Shown here in pieces: positions 4,338 to 43,285 of a DNA stretch of 64,000 bases. The first letter of the stretch is position 1, and every line of letters begins with the position of its first letter. Both the position numbers and the translations under genes were made by a program. The stretch is from Rhizoctonia solani (Eukaryota > Basidiomycota > Agaricomycetes > Cantharellales > Ceratobasidiaceae). The DNA is taken from NCBI RefSeq assembly GCF_016906535.1, contig NC_057383.1, forward strand, positions 1,798,001 to 1,862,000. Direction: 5' to 3'. The notes beneath the pieces are model-generated. The model saw only the letters and a program-made list of their open reading frames with translations, did no database searches and had not been told where the DNA came from.

Positions 4338-4510
4338 TGTCATAAACAGAGGAAAATAGAACTAGCCGGAATTGAACCAGCTTGACCACTAAGCCATAGA
4401 GCCCTATTATTCCTCTGCTGACAACCCATGATTACACCTGCTACCCCCCAAATTTGGGCTTGGGCCAGCATGCAACCACTTGTACTGGTCATGTGACCGT
4501 GTCCAGGACA
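4338..4510 (-). mobile_element. solo LTR of the tRNA-like miniature LTR element
   Basis: This 173-bp sequence begins TGTCATAAAC, ends GTCCAGGACA and is flanked by a perfect 5-bp direct repeat, ATTCT (4333-4337 and 4511-4515). By eye it is identical to both LTRs of the full element at 19586-20020. A single LTR with a clean duplication is the expected product of recombination between the two LTRs of an inserted element. The strand is assigned from the polypurine tract of the full copy. It contains a tRNA-derived module (4357-4403). Confidence 0.92.
4357..4403 (-). other. tRNA-derived module in mini-LTR (anticodon arm missing)
   Basis: Read on the minus strand, the 47 nt give an acceptor-like 5' strand GGCTCTA, then a D arm (GCTT, loop AGTGGTC, AAGC), then a T arm (GCTGG, loop TTCAATT, CCGGC, sharing GC with the D stem), then TAGTTCT, which pairs at 5 of 7 positions with the 5' strand, one of them a G-T wobble. 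The A box (TGGCTTAGTGG) and B box (GGTTCAATTCC) fit Pol III consensus but are only 7 nt apart because the anticodon arm is absent. TTTT, a Pol III terminator, follows at 4356-4353. It cannot be a functional tRNA. Confidence 0.75.
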
Positions 4511-5206
4511 ATTCTGGCCACAATCATGCTGGGACAACATTGTCTTCTCAGACAAAGTCCAAATCAAGTTATTTGGGGCCAACAGCGGCCAATATTACTG
4601 GAGGCAACCTAGTGAGTCCCTGTATAATCCCCAATACACCAAAAAGACAATATCTCATGGTGGCAGGGGTATCTTCATTTGGGGGTGCATTACCCAAGAG
4701 GGAGTTGGGCAATTGTACCTTATACAACGCAAGCTGAATGCCCTGGGATACATTGAAATCCTTGGGGACGCCTTCTTTGGAACCCTTGCCAACTATAAAA
4801 TCACCCTGTTTGACATTACATTCCAGCACAACCAAGATCCAAAGCATACAGCCAGGCTGACACAATGTTGGCTTGCCAGTTGGGGTGTAAGCGTCCTCCC
4901 ATGGCCATCAAAAAGCCCAGATTTGAATATAATTGAGAACATCTGGTGGCATCTGAAGGAGCGCATGCATACTCACCAACCTCCCGCTTTGAATAAGGAA
5001 GAATTATGGAAAATAGTGAGGGACAAATGGAAACAAATTTCCCCAAAATATATTGGCAATTTGTATGATTCATTACCGCATTGAGTACAAGCTGTGTATT
5101 TAGCTAAAGGTGGAAACACCAAATACTAAAATTTGTATCCAAATTATTCAGTTTTGCATGTCATTTTGGGTGCATGCGTGCAGTTGCAGGTGCAATTTGA
5201 AAATGC

Positions 5207-6113: not shown

Positions 6114-6400
6114 TGTCGTAGACACAATCGATACCAGGGAATTTATTCCCAATTTCTCGAATTTAAACGAAGGCAATCGGAGAACATTTTCAATCACGTG
6201 ACATCGGCGCTTATATCCTATGCTAAGCGCCAAGCCACGTCCCCATCCGCGCTTATCTCAGCACACGTAGCCACCTCCACCTGATGACATCATTATGACA
6301 CGTCAGTGACACGTATGCATGAGTAAGGCCAACTGCGGAGCGGGGTTCTTATTTGATACGGTATTGGATATAATGTAATTGTAAATAGCTTGACTGTAGA

Positions 6401-6410
6401 ATATATAAGG
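6401..6410 (+). promoter_or_regulatory. TATA box of Gypsy A LTR promoter
   Basis: ATATATAAGG lies about 30 nt upstream of 6432-6436, the expected start of the R region. The same arrangement occurs in family B. Confidence 0.65.
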
Positions 6411-6435
6411 AGGCCAACCAACCATGGTAACACCC

Positions 6436-6448
6436 AGGTCAGTTACCT
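6436..6448 (+). promoter_or_regulatory. self-primer sequence at predicted 5' end of Gypsy A RNA
   Basis: AGGTCAGTTACCT is the exact reverse complement of the 13 nt just inside the LTR (6689-6701). The position, about 30 nt after the TATA box, puts it at the 5' end of the transcript. This is the geometry of self-primed Tf1/sushi-type elements, where the RNA 5' end folds back and primes minus-strand synthesis. Confidence 0.75.
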
Positions 6449-6688
6449 CTTGTCGCATCCACCACTGTACGAGGGCCTTACAGCCCAGTAAAGTTACTTA
6501 GTTACACGCCTTAAGCGTCGTTCTCGCAGTACATACGTAGCTCGCTGCCGCCTTATAGCGCGTGGCCATCGTAGTTAGTTAGTCCGTCGTCGTAGGGTAA
6601 CCCACCGCCGCCTTAAGCGGTTCATTGTATTAGTTACACGGCCACAAGCGCCCGCACCCTCAACGTCCTTACAGGCGTCCAGGACACT

Positions 6689-6701
6689 AGGTAACTGACC
6701 T
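6689..6701 (+). promoter_or_regulatory. primer-binding site of Gypsy A (self-priming)
   Basis: AGGTAACTGACCT begins two bases after the 5' LTR ends at 6686. It pairs perfectly with 6436-6448 and does not begin with the TGG expected for a tRNA-primed element. Confidence 0.75.
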
Positions 6702-7201
6702 TAAGTCGGTTGCAAACCGTGCCCACAAAGCACACCCTACTCAGCCTCGACAAACGAGAAGGTCCCCTGTACTAGCACGAGGGAAATCACCTGATCAGGC
6801 TCGCCTTTTGCTATCAATAATCAAACTAGCGTCGGCCCCAGGTAGTACCAAATTGCTATAAGGCAGACGGATCCTGATCGTCCGCTTACCACCGGTCACC
6901 GCACCCTTTGTCAGCAGAGCTAGTCAGCAGATCCACCCGCTTGCAGAAAACCCGTTCCACATCACGCCCGTACACGGCAGTTGATTGGTCAATAGGGACT
7001 GTCCAACGCTAGGCGGTTGACGCAAGCTCTTAGCGCCAGTACAATAAAGCGCCCCATAAGTCCTGATACAGGCACCCTTGGCTACAACAGCCCCCATTAC
7101 CCCTATTCTTGCCCACCATTACGTCACGCACCCCCTCTCGCGCTTCCTCCCGCGCTTCCCAACGCGCCACCTCCCACCAAGGCCGTTCATATCCTCATGA
7201 A

Positions 7202-8553
7202 ATGGCAACCCGCTCCCGGAGCACCGCTCGTCCCCAATCCCCTCTTGATCAAGGAGAGTTGGGACCCACTCTTCAGGCAACCGCCGATGAGTCAGGGAGC
7301 CTCGAACCAGAGGTCTACGGGGAAATATCCCTCAGCCGCGCAATCTCCCTCATTCTGGGATTGCAAAACCAAGTCATCAGGCTCGAGCGGGAACTCGAGG
7401 AAGTCAAGGAAATCAACAAGGAAGCCCGAGACTGGATGGGAGCAGTCGACCAAGCCCTCACTTGCATCGAGGCTAGGGGTGAAACCCCACACACACCAGA
7501 AGACCGGAAACCTCCGGCAGTCGAGGCCACGCCCAGGCCCTTACCCAAAGCCGACCCTCTTCCAGCGCCTAGCGCGCCCCTTGTTGCCTGGGCTAACCCC
7601 ACAAAAGCTCCCCCCATCTTTGCCCAACCAATGCCCGTCCGAGCTCCCCCGCGAGTCCAGACTCCCCCTGCACCTACGCCTATCCGGCTCCAATCCCCCC
7701 AAGTCCCACAACCAGTGGCCCCTGTAGCCACTTATCAAGCCCCGGTCAAGGTGGACCACCCTGACGCCTATACGGGGAAGATAGGGAACAAAGCCTGCCA
7801 ATGGCTTACACGGATGCTGGCATGGGTACGTCTGAATCAACGGATGTTCCCCACGGATCAGGAGGTTCTGTTGTTCCTCCTAATGAACATGAAGGACGTA
7901 GCAGGAGCCTGGGCTCACCCCCACCTCAACCAACTAGGGTCCCACAGGGCCCTCATCCAAACGGTTGACAAGTTCAGGACGGAGTTTTTAGCTGCATTTG
8001 GGAACCCGGATGCCACGCGAGCCGCCGAGCGGCAAATCACACAACTTACTCAGACAGGAACCTGTGCTGAGTACATTACAAAGTTTAGGACCATCGCCAT
8101 GGACCTAGACTGGAACGACGCCGCCCTTCGTGGGCAATTCGCACGTGGCCTCCACTGGGAGGTCAGCCGCCTCATCGCCACTTGAGAACGGCGCCCAACT
8201 ACCCTCCTGGAGCTGCAGAACGCAGCCCTGGTCATTGACAACGCCCTCCGCAAGGAGCGTGCCAGCCACCCGCCTAAGGGTAGTAAGTCTGGAACTTCCT
8301 CCACCCCCAACAGGGGGCGAGTACCGGCCAACAGGCCACAAGACCAGGGCGCTTATCCAGCGATCCCAATTTTGTCCCCGAGGAGGAGCAAAACCGCCGC
8401 CGGGCCAAAGGCCTATGCATCAAATGCGGCAAGTCGGGACACAAGTTTGCGGAATGCCGCACTGGCTGGAAGGCCACACCTAAGGAGGAAAGTGTCAAGA
8501 AGGAAGCCGCCAAGGTTGGCAAAGAATCTGGACCCGAATCGGGAAAAGATTAA
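7202..8553 (+). pseudogene. Gypsy A gag (one TGA stop, one frameshift)
   Basis: The likely start ATG at 7202 gives MATRSRST; the frame is open further upstream. After an acidic/proline-rich N-terminus and a coiled-coil-like segment (QVIRLERELEEVKEI) comes the retrotransposon gag region with WLTRMLAWV and CAEYITKFRTIAMDLDW. A TGA at 8183-8185 replaces an expected CGA. A single-base frame change somewhere in about 8190-8360 is then needed to reach the CCHC zinc knuckle CIKCGKSGHKFAEC. The gag stop is TAA at 8551-8553. Gag packages the RNA into virus-like particles. The homologue in Gypsy B (11953-13146) shows the same layout. Confidence 0.9.
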
Positions 8554-8582
8554 GGGCACCTGCCGCCGCGCGCAAGGGCCCC
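8541..8582 (+). promoter_or_regulatory. -1 ribosomal frameshift signal at Gypsy A gag/pol junction
   Basis: The heptamer G GGA AAA (8541-8547) is in the gag frame and fits the X XXY YYZ slippery rule. A 6-nt spacer (GATTAA, which contains the gag stop) precedes a potential hairpin: GGGC at 8554-8557 with GCCC at 8578-8581, plus an inner TGC/GCA pair. Pol continues in the -1 frame (KRLRAPAAARKG..). The same heptamer and spacer recur in Gypsy B. Confidence 0.7.
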
Positions 8583-9621
8583 AAGAACTCTGGCTCATGT
8601 ATCGAAATCTGTAATATATCTAGTAGTAGAATGTCACCCCTGTTCACCATTTCGATCAGACCAGAGAAAAAAGCGGAACCACTAGAAGCCCTGATAGATT
8701 CAGGCGCCACCTCATCCTTCCTCCACCCCCGTACCGCGGAACTACTCCGCCTCCCACTCATTGATCTCCCTACACCCCGTACCGTCACTATGCTCGATGG
8801 GTCGAGCCCCCAGGCAGGCAAAATCTGGAAGAAGGCAGTCCTAACCTTCTCCTTTGATGGCAAAAAAATGACAGAGACCTTCCTTATATGTAACACCGGG
8901 TCTCATGCTGCTATCTTAGGATTGAAATGGTTGGATGCCCACAACCCAGAGATTGATTGGAACATGCGCACCCTTACCTTCCCTCATGCAACCCCCGAAC
9001 ATGTGGCCATCGCCGAGGAAGAGGAAGCTGATAAAAACCCCCTTGAAGGAGTACCCTCCGAGTACCATCAATACGCCAAGGTATTTGGGGAAGAAGAATT
9101 CAACAAGCTCCCTCCACACCGGCATTACAATATTGGAATAGAACTCACGGAAGAAGGACCCCTTAACTCCCCCCTTTACAGTATGGCAGACGCCGAGTCC
9201 GCTACACTCAAGGACTGGCTCAGGGATGAGTTGAAAGCTGGGAAAATCCGCCCTAGCAAGTCTTCCATCAGTTCCCCCGTGATGTTTGTCCCAAAGAAAG
9301 ATGGTTCCCGTCGCTTGGTTGTTGACTACCGTTGCCTTAACAATCGCACCAAGAAAAATGTTTATCCACTTCCCCGCCCAGATGATCTTATGGCCCAGCT
9401 CCGTGGCGCCAAGATCTTTACCAAACTAGACTTATGGTGGGGCTACAACAACGTGCGAGTTAAAGAAGGAGATGAATGGAAGACCGCATTCCGAACCAAG
9501 TACGGCCTCTATGAATCCCTGGTGATGACTTTTGGTTTGACAAACGCCCCCGCCGCCTTTCAGCACTTCATGAACGAGTTGTTCAAAGACTTACTGGATG
9601 TATGCGTCATCATATACTTAG
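8547..9621 (+). pseudogene. Gypsy A pol, part 1: protease and N-terminal RT
   Basis: Reading in the -1 frame relative to gag, this part contains the aspartic protease motif LIDSGATSSF and the RT fingers/palm motifs RLVVDYRCLNN, FTKLDL and FGLTNAPAAFQHFMNEL. It ends at CVIIYL, exactly where the catalytic YLDD should be completed. A solo LTR of family B splits the aspartate codons, and the reading continues at 10183. Confidence 0.92.
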
Positions 9622-10182
9622 TGTCATAACCTCCTAACATATACCACTGGAATCGCACGATTTTTCTATTATTTTTAGTATTTTTTACGGACTTGATATC
9701 TTTTGTTTTTCGATCACGTGATCTCGGCGCTTATTATGCCGAGATGCCGCGCCGAGATGCCGTGCCAAGGGCGCTTAGGAGAAATCCACGCTTCTGTGCA
9801 GCCCGCAGCACGCTTCTCATTTGTCTTAGCTACTTCTTTCTCTCACGCGCACAGACCATGTAGATAGTGTGCTTTGTCTATATATACAGCAGGGAAATCG
9901 CTTGGAGACACCAAGTCGATTTTACCTCGTCTCTTATTCACTAGAGAAGGTAGCCAGCCAGCTAAGTAGCCGGCCCCAGTAGTAACAGTAGCACTCACCC
10001 CTTTTACTTGACCTACCACACCTCCAGGCCTCAGGCCCCATCGCCATCAGTAGATAGTAGTAAGCCGCCTTAAGCGGTATTAGATAGCCTTAGATAAGTA
10101 GAGTACATAAGCAGTGTCTGTAGTAGTTACGGCCTTAAGCGCCCCCCACTAGCGAGTACCCACCTTACAGTGGTGTACAACA
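9622..10182 (+). mobile_element. solo LTR of Gypsy B family inside Gypsy A RT
   Basis: This 561-bp sequence begins TGTCATAACC, ends GGTGTACAACA and is flanked by the duplication CTTAG (9617-9621, 10183-10187). It aligns along its length with the 562-bp LTRs of Gypsy B, including the TATA box and the CAAGTCGATTTTA self-primer sequence, but is more diverged from them than they are from each other. It is what is left after LTR-LTR recombination. Confidence 0.92.
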
Positions 10183-10870
10183 CTTAGATGACATCCTGAT
10201 TTACTCAAAGGATGACGCATCCCACACTCAGCACGTTCACGAAGTCCTACGCCGGTTAATGGAAAACCAATTGTTCTGTAAAGCGTCCAAATGTACCTTC
10301 CACGTCACTTCCGTGGAATACCTGGGAATCATTGTTTTGGACAACGGGTTCAGCTTGGACAAGCTCAAGATCCAGGCTGTACAGGAATGGCCCACACCCA
10401 CTAAGGTTAAAGAAGTTCAATCGTTCCTAGGCTTTGCCAACTTCCTCCGTTGATTTGTTGCCAACTTCAGCCACATGGCTAGGCCGTTACACAACCTAGT
10501 CAAGAAGGACACTCCTTGGAAATGGGAATCAAGGGAACAAGAAGCTTTCCAAGGGTTGAAGGACGCAATCACAAGTGCACCCGTACTTCGCCACGCAGAC
10601 CCCACCAAACCCTATTTCCTGGAAACGGACGCATCCGGTGCAGCTTTGGGATCCATACTCAGTCAACGTCAGGAAGATGGCCGGTTACACCCATTAGGGT
10701 TCCTCTCAGAGTCATTTAAGGGAGCAGAACAGAACTATGATACGCACAACAAGGAATTACTTGCAATCATTTGCTCTTTTGAATATTGGCGCATCTTCTT
10801 GGAAGGAACAGTCCACCCAATCACGGTCTTTACGGATCACCGGAACCTAGAATACTGGAAGGAGTCAAGG
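10183..10870 (+). pseudogene. Gypsy A pol, part 2: RT thumb and RNase H
   Basis: Joined to part 1 this completes YLDDILIYS and continues through FCKASKCTFHVTSVEYLG, a typical RT connection, into RNase H (YFLETDASGAALGSILSQR, DTHNKELLAI, FTDHRNLEYW). A TGA at 10451-10453 interrupts FLR-FVANF where Gypsy B has Arg. It ends at WKESR, where Gypsy B is inserted with duplication CAAGG. Confidence 0.92.
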
Positions 10871-11432
10871 TGTTACAAACCCCTTGATTATACCATTGGA
10901 ATCGCCTGTTTTTTCTATTATTTTTAGTATTTTTAACGGACTCTATATCTTTTGTTTTTCGATCACGTGACCTCGGCGCTTATTATGCCGAGATGCCGCG
11001 CCGAGATGCCGTGCCAAGGGCGCTTAGGAGACATCCACGCTTCTGCGCAGCCCGCAGCACGCTTCCTTTTCCCACCATGTACTTCTTTTCTCACGCGCAC
11101 AGACCATGTAGATAGTGCGCCTTTGTCTATATATACAGCAGGGAAATCGCTTGGAGACCCCAAGTCGATTTTACCTCGTCTCATATTCATTGAGGAGGAT
11201 TAGTCAGCCAGCTAAGTAGCAGGCCCCCAGTAGTATTCAGACGCTCACCACCCCTTAAACTCACCACACCTCCAGGCCTAAGGCCCCTTTGCATTAGTTA
11301 GATAGTAGAAGTCCGCCTTAAGCGGAAGTAGGATAGCCTTATTAGTTAGATTACGTACAGTTTGCTTGTAGTAGTACGGCCTTAAGCGCCCAACTCCACC
11401 AGCGAGTGCCCACCTTACAGTGGTGCACGACA
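10871..11432 (+). repeat. 5' LTR of Gypsy B
   Basis: 562 bp, TG..CA. It contains the TATA box TCTATATATACAGC (11126-11139) and the self-primer sequence CAAGTCGATTTTA (11161-11173). Its partner is 16565-17701 minus an insert. Confidence 0.95.
11161..11173 (+). promoter_or_regulatory. self-primer sequence of Gypsy B RNA
   Basis: CAAGTCGATTTTA lies about 30 nt downstream of the TATA box and is the exact reverse complement of 11436-11448. The same geometry as in Gypsy A, with unrelated sequence, argues for conserved self-priming. Confidence 0.75.
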
Positions 11433-11435
11433 TTG

Positions 11436-11448
11436 TAAAATCGACTTG
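11436..11448 (+). promoter_or_regulatory. primer-binding site of Gypsy B (self-priming)
   Basis: TAAAATCGACTTG starts 4 nt after the 5' LTR end (11432) and pairs over 13 nt with 11161-11173. No tRNA 3'-end (TGG) start is present. Confidence 0.75.
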
Positions 11449-11952
11449 TGTAGGCTTTGATCGACAACGAGAGGACCTCCAGTACTAGCACGAGGGAAAT
11501 CACGTGAACGGACTCGCCTTTCGCTATTAATAATCAAACTAGCGTTGGTCCCACGTAGTACCAAATTGCTATAAGGCTGACAGGCTCTGATTGCCCGTAT
11601 ACCACGAGTTTCGCCGGAACTCTGCAAGTAGCGCTCCTAGACAGCTGAAACACCCGCTTGCAAAAAACCCGCACATATCACGATTGCCAGATCTGCTGAT
11701 TTGCTGTAGGGATTGTCCAACGCTAGGTGCTTGACGCAAGGAGTTAGCGAACAACATCTTGCGCAAAAACCGCTCATAAGTCCTGTACCAGGCACCCATT
11801 CCCCCCCACGCCGTTTCAATATTCCCTCCACTCACTCTGGAGTCCCACACCCTTACTCCCGGCCTTCCTCTCGCTCCTCTTGACGTTCCATTCCATCCCA
11901 CTCCCAACCGGCCTCTCGCAGCACATCTCCCACTCTGCAAGACTTGCCCAGA

Positions 11953-13146
11953 ATGGAACCAGAGCCGTCCCCTACCGCTCTCCTCGAGGCTATCACAGCC
12001 CTCACAGCCACAGTTGGGTCCCTGCAGGACCAAATCCGCGCCCAAAGCCAACAAATCACTGAGCTTAGGGCCATATGCAAGGAAACAGCGGACCTCCTCG
12101 GGGATAAGGATCAAGGAGTCCCTCAAACCAAGCCTGGCCCATCGACTGGGCCTGTCACTCCCCCTACCCACGCAGGGGGAGAAGCCCACACTCCAGGCAC
12201 GGTTAGGCCTGGGCTCAAGGCCCCATTCAGGCCATCAAGAGGAACGGGATTTGATTCCGAAGAAGACGAAGAGCCAAGGCGCCCCAAAAAGGAGCCTCAG
12301 GGAACGCCTAGAAGGCACCTCGGGTCCCTCACCCCCTTCGATGCTGGGTCCAGCGTAAAGAGACCTAAGATGGACCTCCCGGACCCATACAAGGGAGACA
12401 CCAGGGGCCGCAAAGCCACCCAATGGCTGGATTGAATGATGCTCTGGGTTGCCCTTCACAGGGACCAGTTTGACGAAGAAGAGCAGATGGTCGTGTGGAT
12501 CCTCTACCACATGACAGATAAAGCAGCTGATTGGGCACTCCCCCTCATAGGGGCCATCATCAAGGGCGAGGGTAACCCGCCAACCACCATCCAGGCCTTA
12601 ACGGCCAAGTTCAAGGAGGCATTTGACGACCCTGATGCCAAGCGGGCGGCCGCCAGGAAAATAGCCGCGCTAACTCAGACCACTACTACGTCTGAGTACG
12701 TCACCGAATTCCGCAACCTCATGGCGGAACTCGACTGGAACACCAAGGCGTACATTGCCCAGTTCGTGCGCGGCCTTCACTGGAAGGTAAAGGAGCTCCT
12801 GTCCACCAAGGACAATATCCCAGACAACAACCTCGAGGCTATATTCGCTGCCTCGGTCAAAATAGACAATATTCGTCGGGAAAACGAGGAGAACCGCCCC
12901 AAAAAGGCTCCCACCAAGGCCCCGGTCATCGCGACCACTTCCACCACTACCACCACCCAACGGGTCCGCCTCTCTGAGGACCCTAATTATGTCACACCGG
13001 AAGAAAGGGATTGCCGCCGCGCGTCTGGCCTTTGTGTCAAGTGCGGCCAGAAAGGGCATGGGATCAAACAGTGCCCTAACGGGTGGAAAGCCACAATCAA
13101 GGAGGTAGCTAAGGTTGCTGAAGATGTCGAGTTGGGAAAAGATTAA
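11953..13146 (+). pseudogene. Gypsy B gag (single TGA stop)
   Basis: The ATG at 11953 (MEPEPSP) precedes a coiled-coil-like stretch (TATVGSLQDQIRAQSQQITE), a charged proline-rich linker, the gag core (SEYVTEFRNLMAELDWN) and a CCHC zinc knuckle CVKCGQKGHGIKQC. The frame is continuous to TAA 13144-13146 except for TGA at 12433-12435 in QWLD-MMLW, where Gypsy A has TR and an Arg codon CGA is the likely ancestor. Gag forms the particle shell and binds the RNA. Pol overlaps in the -1 frame from the slippery site at 13134. Confidence 0.9.
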
Positions 13147-13175
13147 AGTCGAGGACTGCTGCCAAGCCCCCGACT
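13134..13175 (+). promoter_or_regulatory. -1 ribosomal frameshift signal at Gypsy B gag/pol junction
   Basis: G GGA AAA (13134-13140) sits in the gag frame two codons before the stop. After a 6-nt spacer (GATTAA) AGTCGAGG (13147-13154) can pair with CCCCGACT (13168-13175) with one mismatch, giving a hairpin at the usual distance. Pol follows in the -1 frame without a stop (RLKSRTAAK..). The spacing is the same as in Gypsy A. Confidence 0.78.
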
Positions 13176-16100
13176 AAAAAGGACAATATAGATAGTTGCG
13201 TTGAATTTGTATCAGTTGGTCTTGACTCAAATAAAAAACCTCTATTATTTATCGATCTATACGTCCAGAATTTCCCGGCAGAACCTCTCAAAACTTTAAT
13301 AGACTCAGGAGCCACATTGAACTTCATTTCCCCCTCGATTGTGGAAAAATACAAAATCCCAAAAACCCAGCTCGAAAATCCACGAGTTGTGAGAATGTTA
13401 GATGGTACCATTTCCCAGACTGGTCGCATTTGGCACCAGGTTCAACTCGCGGTCTCGGCCCATGGCCACACACACTCCATCCCCTTCCTTGTCTGCCCAA
13501 TAGGCAACACCCCGGCAATACTTGGCATGACATGGCTAACCCAGGAATCACCTCTAATAGACTGGTCTTTAGGCACCATCACATTCCCAGACCAAGTCCA
13601 GATCGCCTCAGAGGAGGAAGCAGACCCTAATCCCTTAGCCGACTTACCCGCAGAATATCACAAATTTGCTCAAGTATTTGGCAAAGAAGAATTCAAGGTC
13701 CTTCCCCCCCATAGGGAATATGATATTGCCATTGATTTAATCCCGGATGCCAAACTCTCCCCTGGGCCCATTTATGGCATGACCAACGCAGAATCAAAAG
13801 CCCTGAAGCAGCACATTGACGAAGAATTAGCAACAGGCAAGATCCGTCCCAGCACTTCCTCAGCAGGTGCCCCGGTCATGTTCGTGAAAAAAGCTGATGG
13901 ATCCCTCCGCCTAGTTGTCGATTACAGGAAGCTGAATGACGTAACTCACAAGAACGTCTACCCGCTGCCAAGACAAGATGACCTCATGGCCAAGTTAAGA
14001 CATGCCAAATTATTCACAAAACTTGACTTACGCTGGGGTTACAACAATGTGCGAATCAAGGAGGGAGATGAATGGAAGACGGCCTTTAGGACCAAATATG
14101 GGCTCTTTGAATATCTAGTTATGCCTTTTGGTCTTACAAATGCTCCTGCCGCCTTCCAGCATTTCATGAATGATCTATTCAGGGACCTCATTGACGTCAC
14201 AGTGGTCATTTATCTGGACAACATCTTGATCTTCTCAGAAAATCCAGAAGAACACCCAGCCCACATGAGGGAAGTACTATCCAGGTTAATGGCAAACCAA
14301 CTCTTCTGCAAACTCTCAAAGTGTCATTTCCATGTAACCACGGTCGACTACTTAGGCATTGTTATCTCCCCTGCTGGGTTCTCAATGGACCAGAAGAAAA
14401 TAGAAGCGGTCACAACCTGGCCCACTCCCAAAACGGTCAAACAGGTTCAGGCTTTCCTAGGATTCGTCAACTACCTCAGACGGTTCATTCCCAATTTCAG
14501 CTTGGTTGCACGCCCCCTCCACAACCTCACCAAAAAGGAAACCCTTTGGTCATGGGGTAACCCAGAAGAGGAAGCATTCCAGGAGTTGAAACGCCTAGTT
14601 ACTTGGTCACCAGTGCTTATCCATTCCAATCCTAGCCTCCCCTACTACCTTGAAACAGATGCGTCAGGGGTAGCCATGGGAGCAATCCTCAGTCAAAGAG
14701 GGGAGGATAACCGTTTACACCCGGTAGCCTATATGTCGAAATCCTTCTCTGGTGCTGAGGCCAATTACGACACCCATGACAAGGAACTCCTGGCCATCAT
14801 CAAAGCCCTAGAGGAGTGGCGTATTTTCCTAGAAGCAACAGATAGGCCAATTCAGGTTTTTACGGACCATAGGAACCTAGAATACTGGATGCAGGCACGG
14901 ACCTTCAACCGTAGGCACGCACGATGGCGTATTTTCCTGAGCGATTTCAATTTCGAGATCCACTATCGCCCAGGAAAGCAATCAGGGAAACCAGACGCGT
15001 TATCTAGAAGGTCAGATTATGTGGACACGTCCCCAGAACCAGAGGTCATGTTACCATCGGAGGTCTTTGCCAATACGTCAGAGGAAGAAGTCAAAATTGT
15101 CACAGAAATTCGCTCTAGACTCAGGGAGGATCCATCACTGGAACCCATCATTCAATTTCTCACAGAAGATGCGGACAATGCACCTCCCTCCATTTGGAAA
15201 GCTTACAGAGACTACGATTGGGAAGAGGACCTTCTATGGTACCAAGGGAAACTAGTTGTCCCAGACTTGGAAACCCTGAAAGAACGGCTGCTGAGGGAAT
15301 TCCACAACTCACCACTGGCCGGTCACCCAGGTCAACAGAGGACCCTTGAGCTTCTAAGTCGCAACTACTGGTGGCCAGGCATGAAATCATCCTCCAAAGA
15401 ATGGGTGGAATGCTGCCCCACATGCCAGGCCAACCGCCGAGCACGCGCCCCGGTCATTGCCCTCAAACCTCTGGAAGTTCCCCCGTACCCATTCCACACG
15501 ATTTCCTATGACTTTATCACGGGTTTCCCTAAGTCAAACGGCCATGACGCAATCTTGGTAGTCATCGACTCCTTCTCCAAATTCGGGCATTTCATCCCAA
15601 CTACCAAGAAGGTTACATCTAAAGGCCTAGCGGATTTATTCATCTCACATGTGTGGAAACTCCACGGGTTACCAGTCAAAACAATTTCAGACAGGGGGAC
15701 AACGTTTACTGGAAAGTTCCTAAGGGCACTCTATCAACGCCTCGGAGTAAAACCAGCCTTTTCATCAGCCTACCACCCGGAATCGGACGGACAAACAGAA
15801 AGGGTGAACCAGTTCATCGAGTTCTACCTCAGATCATACGTTGCCGCCGACCACTCAGATTGGGCCACCTGGTTGCCACTAGCGGAATATGCCTATAATA
15901 ACGCAAAACACTCTGCAACCGGAAAAACTCCTTTTGAATTGGTTTATGGAAGAAACCCCATCATGAATCCGTCTAACGTTCCCGCGAATGTTCCAGAAGC
16001 AGACCTTGTAGCCGATACCTTGGCCCAAGAATGGAAGGAAGCAGAGTCAGCGCTGAGAATGACAAAAGAACGCATGACTAAAACAACAGGGATGATACCG

Positions 16101-16553
16101 GAATACTCCATAGGCGAAAAAGTCTGGCTAGATGGAAAGAACATAGAACTTAGGACAAACTCCAATAAGCTAGACCCCAAACGCCTAGGCCCATTCAAGG
16201 TTACAGAGAAATTATCCAGCCACGCCTACCGCCTGGAACTCCCCGAAACCCTGAAAATCCACAATGTATTCTACGTGGGATTACTATCAAAGGCACACGA
16301 GTCACCAAGTCAGCCGTTCCCAGAACGACCCCCTCCTGAAACAATAGAAGGGGAGGAAGAATACGAGGTCGAACAAATCATTGACTCTAAACGCCAACGG
16401 GGAAAATGGTTTTATTTGATCAAATGGAAGGGTTACGGTCCAGAGGATAACTCATGGGAGCCAGAGGAACTGTTGGAACACAGCCAGGAAGAGATCAAGC
16501 GCTTTAACCAAGCCAGACTCAGAAAGGCTCGTGACGCCGCCAAGAGCCTTTAA
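13140..16553 (+). CDS. Gypsy B pol polyprotein (PR-RT-RH-IN-chromodomain)
   Basis: The frame is open from the frameshift site to TAA 16551-16553. In order: aspartic protease LIDSGATLNF (codons near 13296); RT with RLVVDYRKLND, FTKLDLRWGYNNVR and FGLTNAPAAFQHFMNDLF; RNase H with YYLETDASGVAMGAILSQ and FTDHRNLEYW; integrase zinc module H..H..CCPTC and DDE core (VVIDSFSKFGHF, TISDRGTTFTG, SAYHPESDGQTERVN); and a chromodomain with EYEVEQI, FYLIKWKGYG and NSWEPEE, whose aromatic cage residues are present. The RT active site reads YLDN because codon 14220-14222 is AAC; GAC is expected, so RT is probably dead. The enzyme complex copies and integrates the element in the nucleus. Confidence 0.93.
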   Translation, partial: RLKSRTAAKPPTKKDNIDSCVEFVSVGLDSNKKPLLFIDLYVQNFPAEPLKTLIDSGATLNFISPSIVEKYKIPKTQLENPRVVRMLDGTISQTGRIWHQVQLAVSAHGHTHSIPFLVCPIGNTPAILGMTWLTQESPLIDWSLGTITFPDQVQIASEEEADPNPLADLPAEYHKFAQVFGKEEFKVLPPHREYDIAIDLIPDAKLSPGPIYGMTNAESKALKQHIDEELATGKIRPSTSSAGAPVMFVKKADGSLRLVVDYRKLNDVTHKNVYPLPRQDDLMAKLRHAKLFTKLDLRWGYNNVRIKEGDEWKTAFRTKYGLFEYLVMPFGLTNAPAAFQHFMNDLFRDLIDVTVVIYLDNILIFSENPEEHPAHMREVLSRLMANQLFCKLSKCHFHVTTVDYLGIVISPAGFSMDQKKIEAVTTWPTPKTVKQVQAFLGFVNYLRRFIPNFSLVARPLHNLTKKETLWSWGNPEEEAFQELKRLVTWSPVLIHSNPSLPYYLETDASGVAMGAILSQRGEDNRLHPVAYMSKSFSGAEANYDTHDKELLAIIKALEEWRIFLEATDRPIQVFTDHRNLEYWMQARTFNRRHARWRIFLSDFNFEIHYRPGKQSGKPDALSRRSDYVDTSPEPEVMLPSEVFANTSEEEVKIVTEIRSRLREDPSLEPIIQFLTEDADNAPPSIWKAYRDYDWEEDLLWYQGKLVVPDLETLKERLLREFHNSPLAGHPGQQRTLELLSRNYWWPGMKSSSKEWVECCPTCQANRRARAPVIALKPLEVPPYPFHTISYDFITGFPKSNGHDAILVVIDSFSKFGHFIPTTKKVTSKGLADLFISHVWKLHGLPVKTISDRGTTFTGKFLRALYQRLGVKPAFSSAYHPESDGQTERVNQFIEFYLRSYVAADHSDWATWLPLAEYAYNNAKHSATGKTPFELVYGRNPIMNPSNVPANVPEADLVADTLAQEWKEAESALRMTKERMTKTTGMIPEYSIGEKVWLDGKNIELRTNSNKLDPKRLGPFKVTEKLSSHAYRLELPETLKIHNVFYVGLLSKAHESPSQPFPERPPPETIEGEEEYEVEQIIDSKRQRGKWFYLIKWKGYGPEDNSWEPEELLEHSQEEIKRFNQARLRKARDAAKSL

Positions 16554-16564
16554 GGGGGGGGCAA
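16554..16564 (+). promoter_or_regulatory. polypurine tract of Gypsy B
   Basis: GGGGGGGGCAA lies directly between the pol stop and the 3' LTR, the position where plus-strand DNA synthesis is primed. Confidence 0.8.
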
Positions 16565-17701
16565 TGTTACAAACCCCTTGATTATACCATTGGAATTGCC
16601 TGTTTTTTCTATTATTTTTAGTATTTTTAACGGACTCTATATCTTTTGTTTTTCGATCACGTGACCTCGGCGCTTATTATGCCGAGATGCCGCGCCGAGA
16701 TGTTGTGCCAAGGGCGCTTAGGAGACATCCACGCTTCTGCGCAGCCCGCAGCACGCTTCCTTTTCCCACCATGTACTTCTTTTCTCACGCGCACTGTCCT
16801 AGACGTCTGTAAGGACGTCAAGGGTGCGGGCGCTTACGGCCGTGTGACTAATACAATGTACCGCGTAAGGCGGTGAGGTTCTACCCTACGACGTACTCAA
16901 CACTATCTACGGTGATAAGACGCTTTAAGGCGTCGGTGAGCTACCTAAGTACAATGGAGAGAACGCTTAAGGCGTGGAGCTAAGTAGTTACTGGGCTATA
17001 AGGCCCTCGTACAGTGTGATGAAGCGACAAGAGGTAATCGACCTGGGTGTTACCATGGTCGGTTGGCCTCCTTATATATTCTACAGACTATCTAATTACA
17101 AATGTACTATATCAAATGATGTATCAAATAAGAATCCCGCTCCGCAGTCGGCCTTACTCATGCATACGTGTCACTGACGTGTCATGATGATGTCATAGGT
17201 GGAGGTGGCTACGCATGATGAGTAAGCGCGGGTGGGGACGTGGCTCGGCGCTTAGCGTATGATATAAGCGCCGAAGTCACGTGATTAGAAATGTCGTCCG
17301 TTTAACTTCGTTTAAATTCGAGAAATTGGGAATAAATTCCCTGGTATTGAGTGTGTTTACGACACGCACAGACCATGTAGATAGTGCGCCTTTGTCTATA
17401 TATACAGCAGGGAAATCGCTTGGAGACCCCAAGTTGATTTTACCTTGTCTCATATTCATTGAGGAGGATTAGTCAGCCAGCTAAGTAGCAGGCCCCCAGT
17501 AGTATTCAGACGCTCACCACCCCTTAAACTCACCACACCTCCAGGCCTAAGGCCCCTTTGCATTAGTTAGATAGTAGAAGTCCGCCTTAAGCGGAAGTAG
17601 GATAGCCTTATTAGTTAGATTACGTACAGTTTGCTTGTAGTAGTACGGCCTTAAGCGCCCAACTCCACCAGCGAGTGCCCACCTTACAGTGGTGCACGAC
17701 A
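16565..17701 (+). repeat. 3' LTR of Gypsy B, interrupted by solo LTR A
   Basis: The LTR is 562 bp after removal of 16795-17364 and one 5-bp duplication. All five differences from the 5' LTR are C to T in this copy, three of them in TCG, and one alters the self-primer (CAAGTTGATTTTA). Confidence 0.93.
16795..17364 (-). mobile_element. solo LTR of Gypsy A family, reverse orientation, in Gypsy B 3' LTR
   Basis: The 570-bp insert begins TGTCCTAGACG and ends TTTACGACA, the reverse complement of a family A LTR (573 bp). It has target duplication CGCAC (16790-16794, 17365-17369). It shows that family A elements were still transposing after Gypsy B had inserted into Gypsy A. Confidence 0.93.
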
Positions 17702-19383
17702 CAAGGACCTTTAACCAACGTCACGCACGGTGGCACCTGCTACTAGCAGGATACAACTTCCAAATCGTATACCGTCCGGGAAAACAGTCCGGCAAACCAG
17801 ACGCCCTGTCCCGCCGATCCAATCATGCTGACGTTCCCCCGGCCAGCCAGACCATGCTGCCAGACCCTGTCTTTGCCAACATAGCCAAAGTAACGCCCGA
17901 GAAGGAGATCCAGCGCCTGATTGAAACCGCCCTAGACCAAGACAAATCCTTGGAGGAAATATTACAATTCCTCCAAAACAAGTCCAAGGCGCCTCCATCC
18001 ATCAAACGCGCATTCAAAGATTACCAGATGGAGGCAGGACTTCTTTTCTACCAGGGCCGAATTGTGGTACCAGACGTAGGGACTCTGAGAACGGACCTTC
18101 TCCGGATTTTCCATGACAGCCCCTTGGCAGGCCACCCAGGAAGACAACGGACACTAGAACTACTATCCCGTAATTACTACTGGCCAGGCATCCGTGCAGA
18201 CACCTACTGGCATGTGGACTCCTGTGAAACCTGCCAACGAATAAGGAAACCAAAGTACTCCTCCATTCCCCCGCAGCTGCTTGAACTCCCAACTAGGCCA
18301 TGGCAACACGTCTCCTATGACATGATTGTAGACTTGCCAAGGGACGGGAACCACAACTCAATACTGGTCATAGTAGACAGCTTCACCAAATATGGGATCT
18401 TTATCAAATGCTCCAAGAAGCTGAAAGCACCCGAACTAGCGGAGTTGTTCCTAGAACACGTATGGAAACGCCACGGCATGCCAGAGAAGACTATATCCGA
18501 CAGAGGGAGGGTCTTCAACAATAAATTCCTACGGGCCCTGTACAAACGCCTTGGCATTGACCCACACTTCTCATCAGCGTACCACCCCCAGAGCAACGGA
18601 CAAACGGAACGAGTCAACCCTTCTATTGAACACTTCCTCAGGGCCTATTCAGGGGTCAATCAACGGGACTGGGCTAAATGGCTCCCTATGGCGGAGTTTG
18701 CGTACAACAATGCTGTACACAGTAGCACGGGTAAAACCCCCTTCAAAGCATTGTACGGATGAGAACCTACCTTAACCCCATCCAACATACCTACAGACGT
18801 CCCGGAGGCAGATGATCTTGCCCAAACTATGGAAGCACAATGGAAGGAGGTGGAATCCGCCCTCCGGCAATCTAAGCAACGAATGATAGCCGGAGAGGAT
18901 GGAAGCCCAATAGAATTTGAAGTTGGGGAAGAAGCCTGGCTAGACGCCAAAAACGTGAAGCTAAAGACCCTGAGTCCAAAGCTAACTGAACAACGCCTAG
19001 GCCCCTTCAAAGTAACCAAGAAGATCTCCAACAGGGCATACCGCTTAGAACTCCCGCCAACAATGAGAATCCACGATGTCTTCTACGTGGGCCTGCTGTC
19101 AAAAGTCAGAAGGGACAGAAAGCGCAACTTCGAAAACCGGCCTCCGCCTGTCACCATAGACGGAGAGGAGGAATACGAGGTTGAAGGGATCACTGACATG
19201 GAAGAAAGGAATGGAAAATGGTTCTTCAGGGTAAAATGGAAAGGCTACGGATCAGAGGAGAATACCTGGGAGCCAAGGGAAAACCTTAAAAACGCCGAAA
19301 AAATACTAGAAAAATTTGAAAAGGAAATGAAAAAGAAGGCCCTCGGCGCTGCCAAGGCCCTTAGAGGGGGGGCAGTGTTGTAG
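17702..19383 (+). pseudogene. Gypsy A pol, part 3: end of RNase H, integrase, chromodomain
   Basis: It continues from WKESR with TFNQRHARWHLLLAGYNF. The integrase has the zinc module (HDSPLAGH.., CETC) and DDE core (VIVDSFTKYGIF, TISDRGRVFNN, SAYHPQSNGQTERVN). TGA at 18760-18762 replaces the Arg of the YGREP motif. The C-terminus has a chromodomain with EYEVEGI, FFRVKWKGYG and NTWEPRE. The frame runs through the polypurine tract and stops at TAG 19381-19383, a few bases inside the 3' LTR. Confidence 0.92.
19363..19375 (+). promoter_or_regulatory. polypurine tract of Gypsy A
   Basis: AGAGGGGGGGCAG directly precedes the 3' LTR start at 19376. Its G-run followed by CAG matches the tract of the miniature element. 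Confidence 0.8.
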
Positions 19384-19585
19384 ACACAATCGATACCAGG
19401 GAATTTATTCCCAATTTCTCGAATTTAAACAAAGGCAATTGGAGAACATTTTCAATCACGTGACATCGGCGCTTATATCCTATGCTAAGCGCCGAGCCAC
19501 GTCCCCATCCGCGCTTATCTCAGCACACGTAGCCACCTCCACCTGATGACATCATTATGACACGTCAGTGACACGTATGCATGAG

Positions 19586-19758
19586 TGTCATAAACAGAGG
19601 AAAATAGAACTAGCCGGAATTGAACCAGCTTGACCACTAAGCCATAGAGCCCTATTATTCCTCTGCTGACAACCCATGATTACACCTGCTACCCCCCAAA
19701 TTTGGGCTTGGGCCAGCATGCAACCACTTGTACTGGTCATGTGACCGTGTCCAGGACA
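19586..19758 (-). repeat. mini-LTR copy 1 (downstream LTR in element orientation)
   Basis: 173 bp, the same sequence as 19848-20020 and 4338-4510. The tRNA-like module maps to 19605-19651 (minus strand). Confidence 0.92.
19605..19651 (-). other. tRNA-derived module in mini-LTR copy 1
   Basis: The same 47-nt D-arm/T-arm fusion as at 4357-4403, followed by a TTTT terminator. Confidence 0.75.
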
Positions 19759-19773
19759 CTGCCCCCCTTTTTT
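19759..19773 (-). promoter_or_regulatory. polypurine tract of miniature element
   Basis: The minus strand reads AAAAAAGGGGGGCAG immediately before the LTR's TGTCCTGG. It resembles the Gypsy A tract, which also ends in a G-run plus CAG. Confidence 0.85.
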
Positions 19774-19847
19774 GGGTGGGCGGCGCCCCTGTGAAAAGTT
19801 TTTCCCATGGTGGGAATAGAACTGGTGTCCTTCCAAGTTCTACCAAG

Positions 19848-20020
19848 TGTCATAAACAGAGGAAAATAGAACTAGCCGGAATTGAACCAGCTTGACCACT
19901 AAGCCATAGAGCCCTATTATTCCTCTGCTGACAACCCATGATTACACCTGCTACCCCCCAAATTTGGGCTTGGGCCAGCATGCAACCACTTGTACTGGTC
20001 ATGTGACCGTGTCCAGGACA
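19848..20020 (-). repeat. mini-LTR copy 2 (upstream LTR in element orientation)
   Basis: 173 bp. The tRNA-like module maps to 19867-19913 (minus strand). In element orientation the internal region begins CTTGGTAGAACTTGG; TGG two bases after the LTR end could mark a tRNA-primed site, but no primer is identified. Confidence 0.92.
19867..19913 (-). other. tRNA-derived module in mini-LTR copy 2
   Basis: Same as 19605-19651. If Pol III used this copy, the transcript would end within the LTR at the TTTT. Confidence 0.75.
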
Positions 20021-20388
20021 ATGAGTAAGGCCGACTGCGGAGCAGGGTTCTTATTTGATACGGTATTGGATATAATGTAATTGTAAATAGCTTGACTGTA
20101 GAATATATAAGGAGGCCAACCAACCATGGTAACACCCAGGTCAGTTACCTCTTGTCGCATCCACCACTGTACGAGGGCCTTACAGCCCAGTAAAGTTACT
20201 TAGTTACACGCCTTAAGCGTTGTTCTTGCAGTACATACGTAGCTCGCCGCCGCCTTATAGCGCGTGGCCATTGTAGTTAGTTAGTCCGTCGTTGTAGGGT
20301 AACCCACCGCCGCCTTAAGCGGTTCATTGTATTAGTTACACGGCCACAAGCGCCCGCACCCTTGACGTCCTTACAGGCGTCCAGGACA

Positions 20389-41581: not shown

Positions 41582-43285
41582 ATGAGCGGCTGTGAGTACA
41601 CCTGTTTCCCACCGTGCACGCAGTAGCCAGGGACTGACCAGCAAGGCTGTATGCAGTCCGGTTCCTTAATCTCGTGCGGCCATTCCTGCCTCTACTTCCC
41701 GAGGTTTCTTCGCCAGAGCGCAAGGTAAGTAGTGTATTCGATTTCGATTCAGACGTACTGAAATGGCTTGTAGATTCCGTTTAACCATAAGATATTATGG
41801 ACTGCCGTCACGCTCCTTGTTTTCCTGGTGTGCTCCCAGGTTCCTCTCTACGGTATCATGTCGTCCGACTCGTCAGATCCGCTCTACTGGATGCGAGTCA
41901 TCCTTGCCTCTAACCGAGGAACACTGATGGAATTGGGTATTTCACCCATTGTAACATCCGGAATGATCATGCAACTCTTGGCTGGCGCAAACCTCATCGA
42001 AATCGATTTTAATCTCAAGGAAGATCGTGCGCTCTTTGGTGCTGCCCAGAAGCGTGAGTAAAAAAATTGTATATCAGCGCGTGTACGTGGCATGTGCTGA
42101 CCTATATGCAGTCTTTGCTCTGATCATTTCCGTCGGACACGCGACCGTCTATGTGCTCACTGGCTTGTATGGACAGCCATCTGAGCTCGGAGCCGGTGTT
42201 TGCTTGCTCCTCATTCTCCAGCTCGTCGTCGGTGCCTTGATTGTCATCCTCCTCGATGAGCTCCTGCAAAAGGGATACGGTCTCGGCTCTGGTGTTTCCC
42301 TCTTCATTGCTACCAACATTTGCGAAAGCATTGTCTGGAAGGCTTTCTCTCCTACCACCGTCAACACTGGCCGTGGTCCTGAATTCGAGGGCGCCATTGT
42401 TGCTCTCTTCCACATGCTCTTCACCTGGAACGACAAGTCCCGCGCGCTCAAGGAGGCCTTTTGGAGGGAGCGTCTTCCTAACATCATGAACTGATCGCAA
42501 CTGTCGTTGTTTTCGCCGTCGTCATCTACCTCCAAGGATTCCGCATTGAAATCCCCGTCAAGAGCAACCGATTCCGTGGCCAGCGTGGCAGCTACCCTGT
42601 CAAGCTCTTCTACACCTCTAACATGCCCATCATGCTGGAGAGCGCTCTTACCAGCAATGTATACATCCTCAGCCAGATGCTCTTCAACCGTTTCCCCGAC
42701 AACTTCCTCGTTCGCATGCTTGGTGTTTGGGAGGTTAGTTGCCTTATTTCATTTCGTAAATATCAACTTACGCATATATTGTAGCCTCTTGAAGATTCGC
42801 AACAGCTCATGGCCAAGTCGGCATCGCCTACTACATGTCTCCCCCTCACACCCTCAAGGCCGCCTTCCTCGACCCCATCCACACCGCTATCTATGTCACT
42901 TTCATCTTGACCGCCTGCGCTCTATTCTCCAAGACTTGGATTGAGGTTTCCGGATCTGGACCTCGGGACGTTGCCAAGCAGCTCAAGGACCAGCAGATGG
43001 TCATGGCCGGTCACCGTGAAGGAAGCATGTACAAGGAACTAAGCGCGTTATCCCTACGCCGCTGCCTTTGGCGGTGCCATTCTCGGTTGCTCTCCGTCTC
43101 TGCAGATCTCATGGGTGCGCTCGGTAGCGGAACTGGTATCCTCATGGCCGTCACCATTATTTACAGCTGTAAGTTGTTTGATCCCAGTTACAACGCACCT
43201 CATCCTGACCCCTCTTACAGACTGGGAAATCGGAATGAGGGAATCGGGTGGTCCTGAGATGGCCGCACTTGGTGATCTCATGTGA
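41582..43285 (+). CDS. SEC61: Sec61 alpha subunit of the ER protein translocon (frame broken by apparent 1-bp deletions)
   Basis: The ten-transmembrane channel through which nascent proteins enter the ER. Exons: 41582-41591, 41657-41724, 41774-42053, 42112-42733, 42785-43168, 43221-43285. The start is [15 protein letters not shown]; diagnostic segments include [88 protein letters not shown] and the C-terminus [12 protein letters not shown]. The length and order match the family. However, the frame is lost at about 42491, 42820, 43039, 43058 and 43087; each is repaired by adding one base, often in a short run. Either the consensus has deletion errors or this is a recent pseudogene. SEC61 is essential and usually single-copy, which favours error. 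Confidence 0.88.

Follow-up and report, generated by a model that had tools for sequence, protein, structure and literature searches.

Structure of the locus

The window (the whole stretch of DNA analysed, 64 kb) contains a small non-coding LTR retrotransposon, below called the mini-element, the insertion target of which was the 3' LTR of a larger Ty3-type element, element A (Table 1). The limits of the mini-element had been placed correctly in the initial annotation, and the identity of its LTRs over 173 bp, the 89-bp interior, the TG..CA ends, the 5-bp duplication ATGAG and the minus-strand polypurine tract (PPT) next to the LTR were likewise borne out; at the empty site in the other LTR of element A, ATGAG occurs only once. 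With the insert and one copy of the target site duplication (TSD) left out, the two LTRs of element A are equal at 560/573 positions (97.7%), so the mini-element was inserted after element A. The features of a TRIM are all present, namely two short LTRs, a short interior, no coding sequence, a proposed primer-binding site (PBS), a PPT and a TSD of constant length. A viral contig collection yielded no matches.

Table 1. The mini-element, its tRNA-like modules and the neighbouring chromoviruses (positions in the window)
Feature	Position	Strand	Basis
Mini LTR retrotransposon, whole, 435 bp, non-coding	19586..20020	- (sense)	LTR/interior layout, other genomic copies
5' LTR, 173 bp	19848..20020	-	identical to 3' LTR
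3' LTR, 173 bp	19586..19758	-	identical to 5' LTR
Interior, 89 bp, without coding capacity	19759..19847	-	24 copies in genome
TSD ATGAG, left	19581..19585	.	flank comparison
TSD ATGAG, right	20021..20025	.	flank comparison
Polypurine tract AAAAAAGGGGGGCAG, adjoins 3' LTR	19759..19773	-	sequence
Proposed primer-binding site TGGTAGAACT at LTR+2	19836..19845	-	complement of module end AGTTCTA + CCA
Module of 5' LTR (LTR 105-154): 7-bp acceptor, D-like arm, T arm, no anticodon arm	19867..19916	-	box search, folding, tRNA comparison
Module of 3' LTR (LTR 105-154)	19605..19654	-	as module of 5' LTR
A box TGGCTTAGTGG, LTR 115-125	19896..19906 (5' LTR), 19634-19644 (3' LTR)	-	pattern
B box GGTTCAATTCC, LTR 133-143	19878..19888 (5' LTR), 19616-19626 (3' LTR)	-	pattern
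TTTT directly after module position 154	19863..19866 (5' LTR), 19601-19604 (3' LTR)	-	sole run of at least 4 T in LTR
Empty site, single ATGAG in uninterrupted 5' LTR of host element A	6319..6323	+	LTR comparison
Solo LTR, mini-element family, 100% identical over 173 bp, TSD ATTCT	4338..4510	-	sequence comparison
Element A: Ty3 chromovirus with nested insertions, TSD GCCAC	6114..20388	+	domains, LTRs
Element A, 5' LTR	6114-6686		
Element A, 3' LTR, interrupted by mini-element	19376 to 20388		
Element A, self-primer 6436-6448 matching PBS	6689-6701	+	13 nt
Element B: Ty3 chromovirus, 5' LTR 10871-11432, TSD CAAGG	10871..17701	+	domains, LTRs
Element B, self-primer 11161-11174 matching PBS	11435-11448	+	14 nt

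The two chromoviruses form a nest (6114-20388): element B (10871-17701) interrupts element A, which is further broken up by a solo LTR of the A type that sits within the 3' LTR of B at approximately 16795-17361. Protease, RT, RNase H, integrase, Tf2-1-like SH3 and chromo domains were found in the long frame of element B; in element A, four pieces assigned by position carry gag, protease, RT, integrase, SH3 and chromo domains. Both elements made 5-bp TSDs, and both have a self-primer in the LTR that is complementary to the interior at LTR+2. The self-primer lies 34 nt (A) or 33 nt (B) after TATATA and, judging from this arrangement, the Pol II RNA (mRNA) of each element should begin there.

The solo LTR of the mini-element family at 4338-4510 overlaps the start of an open frame (4497-5084) with a weak DDE_3 transposase match, so that it seems to have disrupted the gene of a DNA transposon. 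At 41967-43257 the window contains exons of a translocon gene of the SecY/Sec61 type.

Copies in the genome

In the genome searched (40.7 Mb, 16 contigs) there are approximately 300 LTR copies of the mini-element. A 34-nt stretch of the tRNA-like module occurs at 307 places with at most three mismatches, and a 34-nt LTR stretch outside the module at 317, the reversed-pattern controls for both giving none. When the interior was used as a DNA query, 24 candidates were obtained in the genome, and all 24 matched.

We examined 106 full-length LTR copies, which were chosen mainly by an exact module match and hence are biased to young copies. They comprise the LTRs of 21 intact elements and 64 others. 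Among the intact elements, 20/21 have exact 5-bp TSDs and 13/21 have identical LTR pairs. Four of the 64 non-paired LTRs belong to three non-intact elements (in one the 3' LTR matches at 171/173 nt, in another it ends at position 70, and the third is interrupted by approximately 6.8 kb), leaving 60 solo LTRs, of which 49 retain exact 5-bp flanks; solo LTRs are thereby far more numerous than intact elements in this set. The A box is present in 106/106 LTRs and the exact B box in 100/106, in a sample mostly picked by exact module match. Genomic copies lacking the 5-bp duplications or the LTR-interior-LTR layout, or a module missing from most copies, had been named beforehand as results that would overturn a TRIM-like family with a tRNA-like module in its LTR. 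The counts above do not overturn it, and this reading holds on the layout, the module and the mostly exact 5-bp TSDs of the copies examined. The mini-element almost certainly belongs to a Helenus-type family of LTR retrotransposons that is young, multi-copy and non-autonomous.

Neither the numbers of places (at most three mismatches or exact) nor the changes per site among 93 copies indicate that the module is conserved more strongly than the rest of the LTR. Exact matches to the module stretch number 99 genome-wide, compared with at least 100 on contigs C1-C7 alone for the stretch outside the module. Changes per site were 0.36 in the module, 0.32 in LTR 1-104 and 0.16 in LTR 155-173 (93 copies of 173 nt; the 13/106 with indels were dropped). 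None fell at LTR 148-154, in what is mainly an exact-module sample. Most changes among the 93 copies are concentrated at two CpG sites, LTR positions 12-13 and 143-144, a pattern suggestive of cytosine methylation, or of a mutational process like it, in the fungus.

Several individual copies deserve description. A subfamily of at least four LTRs (L153-L156) has two T-arm changes in common (TTCAATCCTGG), one of them at a CpG, and a G-U pair keeps the stem. At C3:3222937-3223273 (L033) one LTR of the family has been inserted near the 3' end of another, with the TSD CTCTG. Two copies on contig C10 (418809-419242 and 794881-802137; L008, L087, L088) have the flanks CCGAT/CCAAT in common, and one of them is probably a segmental duplicate. 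The latter interval was considered as a candidate long element and rejected, as it seems to be a mini-element into which another insertion of approximately 6.8 kb has been placed at the PPT.

The tRNA-like module

The acceptor strands of the module, TAGGGCT and AGTTCTA, form 7 bp including two G-U pairs; the D-like arm holds the A box, and the T arm holds the B box. The 7-nt spacing of the boxes and the TTTT that directly follows module position 154 agree with the initial annotation. A search of both strands of the window for an A box and a B box of the patterns used, within 120 nt of each other, gave three places, all three being LTRs of the family, and the third is the solo LTR at 4338-4510. 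On folding, the stem of the module extends outward past the acceptor into the LTR, producing a long hairpin. The LTR RNA folds better than 200/200 shuffles (z = -4.84), and the module alone (48-51 nt) folds unremarkably (z from -1.1 to -1.7).

The module does not qualify as a functional tRNA gene with a recognisable fold and an anticodon: ARAGORN does not report it as a tRNA, Rfam at gathering scores gives no matches in the 64-kb window, module included, and there is no space for an anticodon arm. In a comparison with 40 host tRNAs, the closest to the whole module is a tRNA-Gln call (score 49.6, equalled by 0/1500 shuffled modules). For the 5' half of the module a tRNA-Leu outscores tRNA-Gln, so that tRNA-Gln is a candidate parent only. 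In a search for other module-bearing families, two patterns in which the A or the B box was altered gave 0 and 1 place, and the single place reads like the module of the mini-element; hence there is no sister family for a covariation test.

Fit between the module end and the primer site

LTR retroelements are primed by host tRNAs, by tRNA fragments or by the 5' end of their own mRNA. In the mini-element, the longest plain match of the LTR to the interior at LTR+2 is 4 nt, and the LTR has no TATA. If the module is ended at position 154, the base before the sole T-run of the LTR, and CCA is added, it is complementary to TGGTAGAACT at 10/10 positions, exactly at LTR+2. This fit had escaped the initial annotation, as had the Tf1-like chromoviruses around the mini-element.

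When LTR 50-mers with added CCA were paired with the first 32 nt of the interior, the 50-mer ending at 154 gave the most stable duplex (-29.0 kcal/mol); the next-best 50-mer with CCA reaches -25.4 kcal/mol and the best one without CCA -23.6. The value of -29.0 was equalled by 5/3000 shuffled interiors and 8/3000 shuffled modules. In a local alignment of the interior with the antisense module, 51/20000 (strict) and 36/20000 (permissive) shuffled interiors scored equally well; random genomic 32-mers gave 489/20000 and 379/20000, respectively, a comparison that we set aside, as the pool is full of mini-element copies. A 10-nt match at LTR+2 formed with CCA by any 7 nt of the LTR was seen in 46/4000 shuffled LTRs; with all offsets from 0 to 5 allowed, and with or without CCA, 9/800 reached 10 nt. 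For the 7-nt part at the single predicted register the chance probability is approximately 7e-5, but the register was picked after the match had been seen, and the true value lies between 7e-5 and approximately 1% (register free). Chance is thus a possible source of the fit, at approximately 1% over all registers.

The primer site is perfect in 23/24 interiors, and its complementarity to the module is strict over 10 nt only. At interior positions 26-32 there is a second AGTTCTA, which pairs with the primer site to form a local hairpin; TAGAACT may therefore serve some other function. This hairpin forms in the fold of the LTR end together with the interior, and not in that of the interior alone.

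Given this fit, we tentatively propose, at somewhat less than even confidence, that the mini-element may be primed by its own RNA, that is, by an element-encoded, CCA-tailed primer.

Host tRNAs as primer candidates

The strongest competitor is an ordinary Helenus element, in which the module would be a Pol III promoter only, a host tRNA outside the sample compared here would serve as the primer, and the 7-nt agreement would be due to chance or to the hairpin in the interior. This is a serious contender, if a rather doubtful one. Helenus families are said to use host tRNAs (PMC10886601), the TGG at LTR+2 is expected from any tRNA 3' end, the 46/4000 shuffled LTRs match as well at some position, and the local TAGAACT/AGTTCTA hairpin gives the site a possible second reason to exist.

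The sample of host tRNAs consisted of 40/61 listed matches, a set without Asn, Asp, Cys, His, Met, Pro or Val labels and with mitochondrial tRNAs outside it; isotype labels assigned by ARAGORN are unreliable where introns are long. Speaking against this reading, the longest primer-end pairing with the primer site among the 40 is 5 nt (offsets 0-5). Speaking for it, somewhere along its length a host tRNA labelled Trp (L132) reaches a duplex energy of -25.9, compared with -29.0 for the module. In the local alignment a host tRNA-Gly scores 18 against 21 for the module (strict) and a tRNA-Glu 27 against 30 (permissive); host tRNAs score nearly as well here because T arms look alike.

Sites at which AGTTCT(A) comes directly after a T arm numbered 3, 6 and 4 in three pattern searches, compared with 20, 4 and 0 in the reversed controls. 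ARAGORN found no tRNA at the three sites of the first search, nor in six stretches representing two sites of the second search and four of the third. Two of these six stretches are old LTR copies, and the other four sites of the second search lie in LTR copies as well. With the patterns used (T loops TTCGA and TTCAA; TTCAATTC loops, the module's own, left out), a host T arm that leads into AGTTCT(A), lies outside the LTR family and carries a tRNA call was therefore not found. Also against a host tRNA, the match ends precisely where the sole T-run begins. A separate candidate, the anticodon loop of tRNA-Gly(UCC), fits CTTGGAAGG in the interior by eye and was rejected, since this stretch is approximately 10 nt from the LTR, which is too far for a primer site in the usual position.

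Candidate partner elements

The mini-element and element A have in common a 2-nt CT spacer and a G-rich PPT ending in CAG, and they are 77% alike over a 30-nt stretch covering the PPT and the LTR start. Since the primer-site spacing at LTR+2, the PPT, the LTR start (for A) and the 5-bp TSD are all alike, we infer that resident Tf1-type chromodomain Ty3 elements probably mobilise the mini-element in trans.

Alternatively, a Copia element could move the mini-element, which would be compatible with any reading of the primer. For rust fungi, a Copia partner was deduced from similar PBSs, TSDs of 5 bp and a single case of an interior in common (PMC10886601). Here it is improbable: elements A and B, which belong to Ty3, also make 5-bp TSDs, and it is the PPT and LTR start of element A that resemble the mini-element. 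Genome-wide, the pattern ACANNTGGTAGAACT, which joins LTR ends in ACA to the primer site, occurs at 66 places with at most one mismatch, compared with 75 for the reversed controls. Of these matches, 24 are exact and 42 have one mismatch; 23/24 exact ones are the mini-element, and the other, at C1:529680, has different spacer bases. Among the 23 of the 66 places that were inspected, there was no sign of a longer relative sharing the LTR end (ACA) and primer site, a Copia element included.

The remaining variant, Tf1-like self-priming in cis without CCA, in which AGTTCTA in the element RNA would pair with TAGAACT at LTR+5 and be cut into a primer, is very improbable: although Tf1 has been demonstrated to prime itself and Tj1 is proposed to do so (PMC4600332), elements A and B carry self-primers in their own LTRs and the 7-nt pair is present in the mini-element, the pair is 7 nt long rather than 13-14 nt, it lies at LTR+5 rather than LTR+2, where the plain match is 4 nt, and no TATA would place the RNA 5' end there.

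Proposed mechanism

If the mini-element is primed by its own RNA, the module would be transcribed from the A and B boxes, probably by Pol III, and its RNA would end at TTTT, be trimmed to the base before TTTT and receive CCA like a tRNA. The CCA-tailed RNA would then anneal to TGGTAGAACT at LTR+2 and prime minus-strand synthesis, replacing the 5'-end self-primer carried by the chromoviruses. Copying would be done by the chromovirus RT and integration by the chromovirus integrase. A point against own-RNA priming is that the stem continues past the acceptor and could hinder trimming.

A stop of four T is weak in yeasts. Transcription that runs on as far as the TTTT in the 3' LTR could yield a template RNA of approximately 325 nt, provided that transcription starts near LTR position 96; the module would be the repeated R region of this RNA. 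A leader-trailer stem, possible only in the read-through RNA, would keep the template from trimming. The extended proposal, that one Pol III unit in the LTR gives both the CCA-tailed primer and a read-through template with module ends, is a doubtful one.

Comparison with known systems

The overall interpretation in the initial annotation stood with respect to layout, module and family status, and failed on the lack of a fungal precedent. Helenus TRIMs (TRIMp3; Kojima 2024, PMC10886601), which have tRNA-like LTRs, are already described from fungi, animals and plants, those of fungi having 5-bp TSDs and comprising 113 families in Pucciniales and several Agaricomycetes; the main text of that paper does not mention Rhizoctonia. 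Like Helenus, the mini-element is a short non-coding LTR element with a tRNA-derived A and B box in the LTR, a PBS and a PPT, and its boxes TGGCTTAGTGG and GGTTCAATTCC agree with the Helenus box patterns (TRGCY..YGG; GGTTC). Like the fungal families, it has 5-bp TSDs and many solo LTRs, and its 435 bp lie within the stated range of 311-1263 bp (PMC10886601).

Three differences from Helenus as described concern the missing anticodon arm, the primer site and the partner. The Helenus report gives no complementarity between the tRNA-like sequence and the PBS and concludes that this sequence does not start reverse transcription, and an active Pol III promoter is, by the same account, unproven for Helenus too (PMC10886601). 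In the mini-element, by contrast, the primer site fits its own module with CCA and none of the 40 host tRNAs, and the signs point to a Ty3 chromovirus rather than to the Copia partner inferred for fungal Helenus. In the open literature, searched by title or abstract and partly by exact phrases, we found no report of an element-encoded tRNA-like primer, and no match naming Rhizoctonia solani.

Cassandra, the plant TRIM with 5S rRNA, and Ajax resemble the mini-element in being TRIMs whose LTR contains a small-RNA gene of the Pol III type; unlike these elements of 5S rRNA origin, it lies in a window with no Rfam match at gathering scores. It also resembles tRNA-derived SINEs in its putative A/B-box Pol III promoter from a tRNA, and differs from them in having LTRs, a PBS, a PPT and constant 5-bp TSDs. 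With Tf1, Tf2 and Tj1 it would have in common a primer of its own that pairs beside the LTR; elements A and B have the matching self-primer sequences at LTR+2. However, the primer of Tf1, Tf2 and Tj1 is the 5' end of the mRNA, whereas that of the mini-element would be a CCA-tailed, tRNA-like 3' end. The LTR stretch that is complementary without added bases, typical of the Tf1 type, amounts to only 4 nt in the mini-element, compared with 13 nt in A and 14 nt in B.

As Helenus is already described, fungi included, the layout is that of a new family of a known kind, and the novelty lies in the priming, if the primer reading holds. In that case, LTR retroelements would have one more priming route beside host tRNAs, tRNA fragments and the 5' end of their own mRNA, namely a CCA-tailed tRNA-like primer encoded by the element, the tRNA modules of Helenus would have a job beyond that of a promoter, and such an element would be freed from the host primer supply.
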